Below, one piece after another: positions 7,295 to 13,240 of a stretch of 64,000 nucleotides of DNA. A program made the position numbers and the translations under genes. Within the stretch, counting starts at the first letter, position 1, and each line of letters begins with the position of its first letter. Source of the stretch: Xanthomonas sp. F10 (GTDB lineage Bacteria > Pseudomonadota > Gammaproteobacteria > Xanthomonadales > Xanthomonadaceae); contig NZ_JACHNP010000003.1 of the NCBI RefSeq assembly GCF_014206815.1, positions 310,001-374,000 of the forward strand. The letters are read 5' to 3'. Under the pieces are notes generated by a model. The model saw nothing but the letters and a program-made list of their open reading frames with translations. It was not told the DNA's origin and ran no database searches.

Positions 7295-8638
7295 CTACTT
7301 GCCGATGCAGAAGCTGGAGAAGATCCGCCCAAGCAAGTCGTCGGCGCTGAGCGTGCCGACGATCTCGCCGAGCGCGGCATGCGCCAGGCGCAGTTCCTCG
7401 GCGGCCAGTTCCAGGCGTTCGTGCTGCAGTTCGGCGACGGCCGCGTCGGCATGGGCGGCGGCCCGCTGCAGCGCATCGACGTGGCGCGCACGTGCGGAGA
7501 ACTCGCCGTCGCTGCCCTCGCCGGCCGCGGCGCCAGCGATCGCGCGCAATTGCGCGTGCAACTGCTCCAAACCACTGCCGGTGGCGGCGGAGACATAGAC
7601 GCGCTCGGCGCTGGCGGCAGGTACAGCAGCGAGCAGGTCGCTCTTGTTGTGGATCCACAGGCGCTGCGGCACCTCGGCGATGGCATCGGCGATCGCCGCC
7701 TGCCCGGCCCCGGCCTCGCGCGCATCGAGCACGATCAGCGCCAGGTCGGCGCGCTGCAGTTCCTGGCGCGCGCGGCGCATGCCCTCGCGCTCGATCGCAT
7801 CGCCGCCCTCGCGCAGGCCGGCGGTGTCGACCAGGGTCAGTTCCACGCCATCCAGGCGCACGGTCTCGTGCAAGGTGTCGCGGGTGGTGCCGGCGATGTC
7901 GGTGACGATGGCGCGGTCGCTGCCGGCCAGCGCGTTGAGCAGGGAACTCTTGCCGGCATTCGGTGGGCCGACCAGCACCGCGTGCAGGCCATCGCGCAGG
8001 CGCCGGCCGCGTTCGGCGTCGACGCGCAGCTGCGCCAGATCCGCGCGCGCCTGCTCCAGCCCGGCGCGGACCTGCGCACCGCCCAGCGTGTCCAGCGCCT
8101 CGTCGGCGAAATCGATCGCCGCTTCGATATGGATGCGCAGGCGGATCAGCTGTTCGGCCAGGTCGTCGACGCGGCGCGAGAACACCCCGTCCAGCGAGCG
8201 CCGCGCCGCACGTGCCGCGCGCAGGTCGCCGGCAGCGATCAGGTCGGCGATCGCCTCGGCCTGGGCCAGGTCGAGCTTGCGGTTGAGGAAGGCGCGTTCG
8301 CTGAACTCGCCCGGACGTGCGGGACGCGCGCCGAGTTCGCAGCAGCGCGCCACCAGGTGCCGCAGCAGCACCGGGCTGCCATGCGCCTGCAGTTCCAGCA
8401 CGTCCTCGCCGGTGAAGCTGCGCGGCGCCGGGAACCACAGCGCGATGCCGTCGTCCACGACCTCGCCATGCGCGTCGCGGAAACGCGCGTAGCGGGCGCT
8501 GCGCGGCACCAATCCGCCAAGACCGAGACCGGCGGCAACGGCCGCCGCCGCCGGACCCGACACGCGCACCACGCCGACACCGCCCGCACCAGGGGCAGTG
8601 GCGATGGCGGCGATGGTGTCGGTGGCGGAAGACGGCAT
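7295..8638 (-). CDS. mnmE: tRNA modification GTPase MnmE
   Basis: A 447-residue GTPase that, with MnmG, installs 5-carboxymethylaminomethyl groups on U34 of tRNAs. The N-terminal formyl-THF-binding domain starts at [20 protein letters not shown], with the start set there by family N-termini. The G domain contains [12 protein letters not shown] (G1), DIAGTTRD (G2 loop), DTAGLREGG (G3) and NKSDL (G4). The C-terminus ends in the required FCIGK with the catalytic Cys. The neighbouring lipoprotein gene follows 31 bases upstream in the same orientation. mnmE (thdF) belongs to the conserved origin-linked block of Xanthomonas. Confidence 0.97.
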
Positions 8639-8669: not shown

Positions 8670-11411
8670 TTAGAGCGTCTGCAACTGGCCACGGACGTAG
8701 GCGGCCGATGCACCATTGGGTTGCAGTTCCAGGTAAGTCTGGAAGGCGCGCTTGGCCTTGGCGGCATCGCCCAGCTGGCGGTAGGCGTCGCCCAGGTTGA
8801 CGTAGGCCACCGCGCGCGAGGGGTCGATCTTCAGCGTGTTCTCCAGCCAGCGCACGGCCTGCGCGTACTTGCCCTGGCGATAGTAGATGAAGCCCAGGTT
8901 GTTGGCCGCCAGCGCGAAGTCCGGGCGCAGCTTCAGCGCCTCGGTGAACTGCGCTTCGGCCTCGTCGTAGCGCTTCTCCTTGTACAGCTGCAGGCCGCGG
9001 TCGTTGGCGCGCTGCGCGCGCTGCCGGTCGGACACCGGGCCGGCCGCCGCCGGCACCGCCAGCGGCCGCTCGCCGCCCTGCAGGTCCTTGACCACCACCG
9101 CCGGTTTGGCCGGGGCGGCCGGCGCGTCGGCGCTGCTGGCGCCGGCGTTCGGCGTCGCGGTCGATGCCGGCGCGGCCGCATCGACGCGGTCGTTCATCGC
9201 GATCGCCGCCGAGGACAGTTGCTGCGTGCTGGCGGTGAGGAATTCCTCGCCCTCCGGCACCTGCAGCACGAACTCGCCGCCCTGCGAACCGGGCAGGCTG
9301 CCGAACGCGGGCGTCTGCTGCGAGATGCTCGACACCGCCGGCGCCACGTAGGCCGCCAGCTCGGTGCCGGTGATCAGGCCGTCGCCGTTGAGGTCGGCCT
9401 TGCCCGACAGCGCCTGCAACAGCACCCAGGTGAACACCGAATGGCCGTTGGGGCCGCTGTCGGCCACCTGCTGGTCGGCGCCGCCGGCGGTGAGCATCTG
9501 CCGGGCGATGCGCCGCGCGTTCTCGCGCAGGTAGGCGCTGGTGCCGCCGCCGCGGGTCAGGCCCAGGCCGCTGTAGCACGCGTCCATCACGAACAGCACG
9601 TGCTTGGCTTCCAGGCTTTCGGCGATGTCCTGGATCTCGGTCATCGGAATCGCGTCGGTGGCGAACTGCGCCGGGTCCGAATCAGCGGGGATGATGTAGC
9701 CGAGGTCGCGTCCGGAGGCCAGCTTGCGGGTCGCGCCATGGCCGGCGAAGAACACGAACACGCGATCGTTCTTGCCCACGCCGCCGTGCGCGAGCCGATC
9801 GTGGAAGGCGGCCAGGATATTGTTGCGGGTGGCTTCCTGGTTCTTCAGCACGATCACCTGCGACGAGGGGAAGCCGAAGCTGCCGGTGAGCGTCTGCGCG
9901 ATCGCCTGTGCATCGTTGGCCGCGTACTGCAGCTTGGGCCAGTGCGCGTAGTCGTCGATGCCGATCACGATCGCCCACGACTTGTCGTAGCCGCTGGTCA
10001 CCGCCGGTGCGGCAGCGTTGCTGGCCGCGCGCGCCACGCTGAAGTCGCGCCCGTTCCAGGCAGCGAACTGGTAGCCGTCGGCGCTGAGCCGGTCCAGGAT
10101 CTGCGGCAGCGCCTTGACCGTGCGTTCGTGGATGTCGTGGAACAGCAGGATGCCGCGCTGCTCGCGGCCGACCTGCTCGAGCACGCGCTGCACGATCGAC
10201 TCCGGCACCGGGTCGGCCCAGTCCAGCGAATCCACGTTCCACATCACCGACTTCAGCCCGGCCTCGCCGAGGATCTGCATGCCCTCGGCGTTGCGCGCGC
10301 CATAGGGGAAGCGGAACAGCGGCGCACGCTTGGCATCGACCGCGCGCAGCATGCGGTCGGTGTCGAGGATCTGGCTGCGCAGCGCGGCGCCGGTTTCCTT
10401 GGACAGTTGCGCGTGGGTCAGGCTGTGGTTGCCGACGGTGTAGCCCTGCTCCATCAGGCTGCGGCTGACGTTGGCCAGCGGCGACAAGTCGACCTTGCCA
10501 TCGGGCTCCAGCTTGCCCAGGTTGCGGCCGACTTCGAAGAACGTGGCCGGCACGTCGTAGCGCTTGAGGATGGCGACGATCTCGTCGGTGTACGCGCGGT
10601 GCGGGCCGTCGTCGAAACTCAGCACCACGGTCTTCGGCGGGAGGTCGCGGCCGAACACCTCTCGGTCGCTGTCCTTCATCGACATCGGGTACGGCGTGAT
10701 CACGCCGTAGTCGCGCAGGATCGCCTCGCGCGTGTACAACGTGCCCAGGTGGGCGACGTAGTCCTCCCACTTCTCGCGCTTCTGCACGATCGCGCGGGTG
10801 CGATCGAAGCGGCTGAAGATCGCGGTGATCTCGCGGTTGTAGGTGCGCTCGATTTCGTCGAGCGCCTCCAGGTCCTCGCCGATGCGCTGGTGCAGCTTGA
10901 TCGCCGGCAGCGAGGAATCCTTGCCGATGCGCAGCTGCCAGTCGGCGAGAATCTCGCGGAATGCCAGGCGGTCGGCGTCGTACAGGTCCAGTGCCGATTC
11001 GACGTAGTCCAGCAGGCTGCCGACCGCGGCGAAGCGCTGCGGATCGGGCAGCGCCAGCAGCGCGTCGAACTGCCTGGCCAGCGTTTCGCGGCGCTCCAGG
11101 CCCTCATGGAACAGCTGCTGTCCGACGCTGCTGGAGGTCTGCCGGTCGGCCGGCGATTGTCCGGCCTCGTCGGCCAGCAGCACGATGATCTTGCGCTGCG
11201 CCGCCAGCTGCGCCTGCAGGCCTTGCAGCAGCGCCGTGGCCTGGGTCTGCAACACCGGCGAGCCGGGGATGGCGATCGCCGCCTCGGGCGATGCGGGCTT
11301 GGCGGCCGCCGTCTCGCTGCCGGCCGGCGAGCGCTGGCAGGCGGCCAGGGCCAACGCGAGCAGGCCGATCACGGCCACGGATGGCGACAACGGACGACGG
11401 CGCTTGCGCAT
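8670..11411 (-). CDS. Lipoprotein fusing polysaccharide deacetylase, caspase-like peptidase and TPR domains
   Basis: A 913-residue protein. The signal ends in lipobox LALAAC (Cys25), so it should be lipid-anchored. A helical region (about 50-240) is followed by a NodB deacetylase domain (about 258-450) with SFDDGPH (D267, D268), NHSLTH (H329, H333), FRFPYG and LLFHDIH. Next is a caspase/C14 domain (about 477-720) starting [14 protein letters not shown], with catalytic His558 in FFAGHG and Cys612 in VMDACYSG. An EF-hand-like loop [12 protein letters not shown] lies inside it. A Pro/Ala linker leads to three TPRs (about 800-905). It corresponds in place and size to the 'orf900' reported in X. 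campestris 17 between thdF and yidC. Substrates are unknown. Confidence 0.9.
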
Positions 11412-11481: not shown

Positions 11482-11499
11482 GCCCGCCGGAGGGCGGGC
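11482..11499 (-). terminator. Hairpin after yidC
   Basis: GCCCGCC-GGAG-GGCGGGC forms a perfect 7-bp stem just beyond the yidC stop. On the minus strand only GTTG follows, while on the plus strand TTT follows. It could be a weak intrinsic terminator or an mRNA 3'-end stabiliser separating yidC from the caspase lipoprotein gene. Confidence 0.45.
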
Positions 11500-11509
11500 T
11501 TTGTCGGGT

Positions 11510-13240
11510 TTACTTCTTGGCCTTGGCCGGCGGCTTGCCGCTGCCGCCACCGCCGGCCGTGGCCGGTTCGCCGTGGCGCTTGGTCATCCACCACTGCTGC
11601 AACAGGCCCAGCGAACCGTTGGTGACCCAGTACAGCACCAGGCCGGACGGCACGAAGGCCATCATCACGCCGAACACCAGCGGCATGAACTGCATCATCT
11701 TGGCCTGCACCGGATCCATGCCCGGCGACGGCGTCAGCTTCTGCGTCAGCCACATCACCGCCACGTTGATCACCGGCAGGATGAAATACGGATCGCGCGC
11801 GGTCAGATCCTGGATCCAGGCGAACCACGGCGCCTGACGCAGTTCCACCGACTCCACCAGCACCCAGTACAGCGCGAAGAAGATCGGCATCTGGATCAGC
11901 ACCGGCAGGCAGCCGCCCATCGGGTTGATCTTCTCCTTCTTGTACAGCTCCATCATCGCCGTCTGGAACTTCTGCTTGTCGTCGCCGTAGCGCTCCTTGA
12001 GCTGCTGGATGCGCGGCTGGAACTTGCGCATCTTGGCCATGCTCTTGTACTGCGCGGCCGACAGCGGATACAGGATCAGCTTGAGCAGCACCACCAGGCC
12101 GACGATCGACCAGCCCCAGTTGCCGAGCAGGCTGTGCAGATGGCTGAGGATCCAGAACAGGCCCTGGCCCAGCATTGCGGGCAAAGTGAAGCGGCTGTAA
12201 TCGACGACGCGATCCAGGCCCTGCACTTGTTCCTTAGCAATTTGGTTGACCAACTTCGGCCCAACCCACAACCGCGCTTCGGTGCTTGCGCTGGCGCCCG
12301 GCTCCACTGTGAAGCCCGGGCCGCGCGTTTCGATCACGTGGCGCGGACCGTCATTGGACAGCACAAACAGGGATTGCTGATCAGCCTGCGGAATCCAGCT
12401 TGTAAAGAAGTGATGCTGCAGCAGTGCGATCCAGCCGCCCTTGATGGTTTGGTTGAGCGGACCATCTTCCATGTAGTCCTTGAACGCCCTGCGCTGGTAG
12501 CCGTCCTGCTTGCTGAACCAGGTGGCGCCGTTGAAGCTGAAGGAATCCGGATTGGTCATGCCGCGGCTGACGATGGTCGGCACCCGGCTCAGCTTGCGGA
12601 ACACATAGCCCTGCCACGGCTTGCTGCCGTGGTTGATGACCTCGTCGTGCACCTGCACCGCGTAGTGGCCACGCTGCAGGGTGTAGACGCGGCGGATGCT
12701 GACGCCGTCCGGGCCGTTCCACACGAACGGCACCTGCAGGCTGTCCTGGCCCTTGGCCAGCACGTAGTCCTGGCCCGGCTGCTCGGGGCGGAAGCCGCCC
12801 GGACCCGGCGACGGCGAGTTGTGCTCGCCCACCCAGCCGCTGATGGCGGTGTACGGATGCGCCGGGTCCTCGGTCAGCAGTTGCACCGGCGGGCTGCCGG
12901 GCTGCTTGGTCTGCGGGAACAGCAGCAGGTCGGCGTCGAACACGCTGCGGCCATCCAGGGTCAGGCGCAGCACGTCGGTGGTGACGGTGACCCGCGGCGC
13001 GGCGCTGGCCGCGGCGGTCTCGGGCGTGGTGCTGGCCGGCGCAGTGCCGGGCACCGTGGCCTGCGGCACCGCGGGCGCATGCGTGGCGCCGGCGTCGGCG
13101 TCCTGCGCCGGCGGCACCGTGGTCGCCGCCGCGACCGTTGTCGCAGTGGCGTTCGGCGCATGCTCCTTGTTCCACTCCATCCACAACAGCGCCGCGACCA
13201 TCAGCCAGGCGAAAATCAGGAAAAGGCGGGTCTGGTTCAT
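11510..13240 (-). CDS. yidC: Membrane protein insertase YidC
   Basis: A 576-residue inner-membrane insertase that works with Sec and alone. The N-terminal anchor is [15 protein letters not shown] (residues 6-20), followed by an Ala/Thr/Pro-rich stretch and the large periplasmic beta-sandwich. The conserved five-helix core starts about residue 355, with [22 protein letters not shown] and [23 protein letters not shown]-type segments near the end. The tail is basic (KPPAKAKK). It lies 18 bases downstream of rnpA in the rpmH-rnpA-yidC order. No yidD lies between rnpA and yidC, unlike many bacteria. Confidence 0.97.

Follow-up and report, generated by a model that had tools for sequence, protein, structure and literature searches.

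A deacetylase-caspase-TPR protein encoded beside mnmE in Xanthomonas as a candidate enzyme of the cell envelope

A polysaccharide deacetylase and a caspase-type protease joined in a single chain raise the question of whether such a protein serves to kill the cell or to modify its envelope. One such gene is found in the 64,000-nucleotide stretch of Xanthomonas sp. F10 (contig NZ_JACHNP010000003.1) that was analysed here and is referred to as the window; it encodes a predicted exported protein of 913 amino acids (Table 1). A first-pass annotation had recognized a lipobox, a NodB deacetylase site, a His558/Cys612 dyad, an EF-hand-like loop and tetratricopeptide repeats (TPRs) in this one chain, and that reading was borne out by sequence, domain and structure matches. 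The explanation we favour, with about even confidence, is that of an accessory, membrane-tethered and periplasm-facing protein with two enzymes, a PgdA-like CE4 deacetylase and an Arg/Lys-specific orthocaspase (C14B), having a calcium-ordered pocket and docking through its TPRs. The CE4 domain would take acetyl groups off peptidoglycan or another N-acetylated glycan of the envelope, whereas the caspase-fold domain would cut proteins after Arg or Lys. Calcium held in the EF-hand-like loop would most likely order the substrate pocket of the protease, and the C-terminal TPRs would dock a partner or substrate.

The family is real and conserved, and its architecture has already been described as that of the Xanthomonas-type metacaspase, i.e. 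PF01522 and Peptidase_C14 with one to three TPRs (PMC3501461). The parts of that 2012 survey covered here report metacaspase genes of the same conserved architecture in eight of ten Xanthomonas genomes and further members in Xylella, Stenotrophomonas and two Acidobacteria; all 17 sequences have the dyad. The earlier view that the protein is undescribed and has no homologue outside Xylella is thereby left without support. The window protein shares with the published type the domain order (PF01522, then C14, then TPR according to Pfam), the intact HC dyad, the predicted size (97-100 kDa) and the adjoining trmE/mnmE gene, with yidC likewise placed. The lipobox, the EF loop and a Burkholderiales member go unmentioned in the same parts of the survey. 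A literature search, from which subscription journals were mostly absent, returned neither a later functional study of a metacaspase-polysaccharide deacetylase protein nor a paper on a Xanthomonas orf900. New here are an export that persists while the type of anchor changes, the solitary catalytic cysteine, a predicted S1 pocket at odds with a DEVDase reading, the spread to Burkholderiales and the loss or breakage of the gene in some Xanthomonas.

Conservation of the two enzyme domains

A scan of species genomes yielded 57 loci, including a few weak ones, and additional genome searches enlarged this number. The resulting set comprises 73 loci with a strong match, 64 of which span the protein, whereas nine were left out as incomplete or broken; 60 distinct rows, including that of the window, were aligned. 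Many of these rows are close kin, and the peptide patterns of the scan favour near relatives. Nevertheless, identity to the window protein drops to 52% (55 rows compared), so that invariance across the rows is informative. Invariant in all 60 are FDDGP (266-270), H329, H333, R367, D394, W398 and H425 in the deacetylase half, and D500, H558, D610, C612, D673, N675, G676, D677, T681 and E684 in the caspase half. Loss of catalytic residues among homologues, which would have spoken against the first-pass proposal, was thus looked for and both enzyme sites were found to be kept in every full-length row. Pairwise ratios of non-synonymous to synonymous substitution (dN/dS), calculated for eight pairs, ranged from 0.019 to 0.071 for the caspase core, from 0 to 0.174 for the p10/EF part (0 in three pairs), from 0.018 to 0.178 for NodB, from 0.033 to 0.201 for the TPRs and from 0.199 to 0.746 for the leader. 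The leader gave the highest value in seven pairs and the linker in the remaining one. As judged from these ratios, the NodB and caspase domains are both under purifying selection in the pairs tested.

The deacetylase domain has the Asp-His-His zinc ligands, the catalytic Asp and His and the NodB fold that characterize the CE4 family, and its site, as the first-pass annotation had it, is complete, PgdA-like and conserved throughout. The top NodB match of the family profile among solved structures was PgdA of S. pneumoniae (2c1g, E=3.3e-38), whereas the single window sequence slightly favoured 7y51, named a predicted xylanase/chitin deacetylase (E=5.5e-31 versus 5.5e-30 for 2c1g). By analogy, peptidoglycan is the most likely substrate of an envelope-anchored domain of this kind. 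S. pneumoniae PgdA and Bacillus Bc1960, both CE4 peptidoglycan deacetylases, are Gram-positive enzymes, and their alignment covers the NodB part only; the window protein adds the caspase domain and the TPRs.

The caspase fold is common to the window protein, the paracaspase MALT1 and the plant metacaspases 4 and 9 over residues 473-722, at an identity of 18-21%. The Pfam C14 match ends at profile position 196 of 233, whereas the fold match extends to residue 719-722. The HC dyad and the acidic residues align with those of yeast Yca1; more specifically, D500 is aligned with the NDA-motif Asp, and D610 lies two residues ahead of the catalytic Cys. Their counterparts in TbMC2, Asp95 and Asp211, act in substrate binding (PMC6426788, PMC4357240, in the parts covered) and accommodate basic residues (PMC6426788). 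Among 29 loci with distant C14 relatives D610 was Asp in all, and D500 was Asp in 27 and Glu in two. These figures come from a profile survey that matched the caspase domain in 29/29 loci; earlier motif surveys had caught few proteins, and a first C14 profile survey was set aside (20 of 30 loci matched, many outside the caspase domain). The HC dyad together with the acidic S1 pair places the domain among the C14B orthocaspases/metacaspases. Since the two S1 aspartates are conserved and tied to basic residues, cleavage after Arg or Lys, and not of DEVD, is to be expected.

According to the structure model, the EF-like loop sits between predicted helices 659-671 and 682-694, in the p10-like half. 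It scored 12.7 bits against the EF-hand Pfam gathering score of 25.9 and is for that reason called EF-hand-like, although its ligand positions are invariant. This loop and the predicted export set the window protein apart from MALT1, the plant metacaspases and Yca1. Comparable loops were seen by eye in the alignment at the same place in about six of the 29 distant C14 domains (L123, L125, L126, L127, L133 and L146), which are different proteins picked up via the caspase domain alone, and an EF-hand motif is reported for seven archaeal orthocaspases in the available parts of PMC6426788. A loop unique to the NodB-caspase family was therefore rejected, and the sequences indicate that it is a recurrent trait of C14 proteins. 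Published work links calcium near p10 with the activity of type III metacaspases (PMC6426788), and calcium is required by many metacaspases (PMC4357240). His558 and Cys612 are intact in all 60 rows, as had been noted for the window protein, and the Ca2+-dependent Arg/Lys protease proposed at the same time is plausible, considering the invariant EF-loop ligands and S1 aspartates.

A C14 protein on a megaplasmid of Pseudoalteromonas piscicida (L120, 2968-4716) is 41% identical over residues 475-722 and has, by eye, no evident signal peptide. Searches of plasmids and phages gave domain-level matches only.

Export and the single cysteine

The signal peptide of the window protein ends in the lipobox LAAC with Cys25, the sequence hallmark of a bacterial lipoprotein. 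Of the 60 rows, 38 have a lipobox and 21 a membrane helix at the N terminus, the latter consisting of 18 Oxalobacteraceae, two Polaromonas and L059; the remaining row (L036) has a shifted N-terminal frame and was assigned to neither class. Two rows were classed by hand, L031 as lipobox (TVACS) and L059 as helix (Cys within a long helix). In most Massilia forms KRK precedes the helix. Basic residues before a membrane helix stay on the cytoplasmic side (the positive-inside rule) and downstream domains are then periplasmic, so that the enzyme domains of these forms are predicted to face the periplasm. Judging from these N termini, export is the constant of the family and the type of anchor changes. 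The envelope location proposed earlier is thus likely for the window protein, which is predicted to be periplasm-facing.

Cys612 is the sole cysteine past residue 40 in 59 of the 60 rows, L036 being the exception. The catalytic thiol therefore has no intrachain disulfide partner in an oxidising compartment. This pattern must not be overrated, given the cysteine counts of three other genes in the window (mnmE 3, yidC 1, dnaA 3) and the 4 or 5 cysteines of C14 relatives with a lipobox elsewhere; a single cysteine as a general rule for exported C14 proteins was rejected because of the latter. Open frames of 745-761 amino acids with the C14 domain near the end and one cysteine each were observed in L137, L139, L142, L147 and L148.

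Genome position, loss and features of the gene

The place of the gene between mnmE and yidC near oriC had been taken as permanent and as a sign of a housekeeping function, a view that its distribution contradicts. In the Xanthomonadaceae the gene indeed lies between yidC and mnmE, with the trmE neighbour typical of the Xanthomonas-type metacaspase, and mnmE was found at 45 of the 73 loci, at 43 of them together with yidC. The other 28, comprising 26 Burkholderiales or other proteobacterial loci, L039 and L079, have neither gene within the DNA examined. Within its own genus the gene is present in 16 of 20 genomes. In all four genomes without it mnmE still follows yidC, and two of them (L116 and L117) hold short 3' remnants, with nucleotide matches of 72% over 135 and 74% over 123 positions, respectively. 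About 60 of the 135 matched positions in L116 (near 1363-1428) belong to the gene and the rest runs into mnmE, whereas in L117 the remnant is part of some 1.2 kb that separates yidC from mnmE. Because the gene order and the remnants persist, the gene must have been lost in the genus once or more.

The family sample has the gene in 17 of 149 genomes, that of the window included. When 13 family genomes without it were searched, 12 gave a yidC match and one gave none, and the order dnaA, yidC, mnmE was kept in 12/12. The phylum sample gave matches in 7 of 398 genomes, and a search by alignment among genomes of the phylum to which G229 belongs gave 3 of 200, two of which were already known as family members. 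Linkage to oriC as a housekeeping sign was consequently rejected, considering that the order survives without the gene in 4/4 genus and 12/12 family genomes and that Burkholderiales copies lie elsewhere. The patchy distribution shows the gene to be dispensable and accessory.

Frames are shifted or stopped in L061 (same break as L023), L067, L073 and L078, and the first 259 residues of L070 are without a match; these copies occur among X. axonopodis, X. arboricola pv. juglandis, X. nasturtii, X. cissicola and X. bromi. Errors of assembly could account for some of these, but L078 shows several breaks as well as a gap. In a quick tree with a midpoint root, 35 Xanthomonadaceae-type rows formed one starred group and 18 Oxalobacteraceae another. 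The former group includes L039, whose contig is labelled an Azonexus metagenome-assembled genome and is either mis-binned or carries a transferred copy.

Table 1. Window coordinates of the gene, its parts and its neighbours
Feature	Position	Strand	Remark
NodB-caspase-TPR gene	8670..11411	-	whole gene; 913-residue exported protein (predicted)
Signal peptide with lipobox, Cys25	11337..11411	-	residues 1-25
N-terminal all-helical region	10662..11264	-	residues about 50-250; without Pfam family
NodB/CE4 deacetylase domain	10062..10646	-	residues 256-450; invariant D267, D268, H329, H333, D394, H425
Caspase-type C14 domain	9255..9989	-	residues 475-719; p20 and p10-like part
His558	9738..9740	-	catalytic
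Cys612	9576..9578	-	catalytic; sole cysteine past lipobox
Flexible loop behind catalytic Cys	9507..9572	-	residues 614-635, pLDDT <50; invariant R620 and R634; candidate self-cleavage region
EF-hand-like loop	9360..9395	-	residues 673-684; in p10-like half
TPR domain	8676..9029	-	residues 795-912
mnmE (trmE)	7295..8638	-	context; likely start 31 nucleotides downstream of the gene's stop
yidC	11510..13240	-	context; 98 nucleotides upstream of the gene

No Pfam family matched the N-terminal helical region, even with the E-value limit raised to 10; of two relatives, that from Massilia matched weakly once (SATase_N, E=0.36) and that from Variovorax not at all. PADLOC reported one caspase, one TPR and one further weak model. 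A promoter/terminator scan gave no result. By eye, an inverted repeat gcccgcc/ggcgggc, unreported by the terminator scan, is present in the gap to yidC (11482-11499), and a similar repeat occurs 3' of yidC in L116.

Death protease or envelope enzyme

An unlikely alternative is self-proteolysis, in which the caspase half would cut its own flexible loop or the linkers and so release segments of the chain from the membrane anchor or activate them. Auto-processing was in fact suggested to account for the gap between the reported 55 kDa and the expected size of about 100 kDa (PMC3501461, parts covered). Residues 614-635, behind Cys612, are modelled as flexible, yet R620 and R634 among them are invariant, which is compatible with self-processing; however, these arginines may be structural, and according to the parts of PMC4357240 covered here, type I metacaspases have no reported conserved cleavage sites. 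The conserved linker island VVVKDLQGG was rejected as a cleavage site, as none of its positions is basic throughout (K or R in 52/60; Lys is replaced by Ala in seven rows, by Arg in one and by Thr in one).

The published reading, a caspase-3-like executioner of rapid or programmed cell death in Xanthomonas that is active under metabolic stress, appears improbable to us. It builds on a deacetylase-caspase gene of X. campestris pv. glycines (GI 88792532), homologous to the family, whose product cross-reacts with caspase and PARP antibodies and is said to resemble PARP (PMC3501461, citing Raju 2007), and on the DEVDase activity and FITC-DEVD-FMK labelling of dying X. campestris cells, in which activity and death markers depend on putA (PMC4006831, both in the parts covered). 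Moreover, the NodB-caspase gene provides the only C14 match in the genome of Xanthomonas sp. F10. However, the S1 residues predict a basic P1 and not Asp, and an exported protein would face the periplasm, whereas DNA breaks arise in the cytoplasm. The reported 55 kDa also differs from the 96.4 kDa of the mature protein, and cleavage once behind R620 would leave fragments of 65.6 and 30.8 kDa. Pfam detected no PARP family in the window protein (E up to 1). Neither the word metacaspase nor the word deacetylase appears in the text of PMC4006831, and the passages covered of this paper and of PMC3501461 report no knockout of the NodB-caspase gene.

It is very unlikely that the protein acts as a regulator or scaffold and that either catalytic site has become irrelevant: the gene is absent or broken in some Xanthomonas genomes, as such a role might allow, but both sites are invariant in the intact rows and both domains are constrained in the eight pairs.

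The explanation that we prefer, a tethered deacetylase-orthocaspase of the periplasm, would allow the two activities to be coupled in envelope remodelling or in the response to stress. Only tentatively do we extend it to an extracytoplasmic class of caspases, i.e. calcium-gated, envelope-tethered Arg/Lys proteases that share one chain with a peptidoglycan deacetylase and couple wall modification to proteolysis, in which case the published assignment as a death executioner would be mistaken. The gene put forward as that of the Xanthomonas caspase is open to a direct choice between a death protease and an enzyme of the envelope. Should both activities prove real, it would encode an unusual single chain that unites glycan deacetylation and caspase-type proteolysis outside the cytoplasm.
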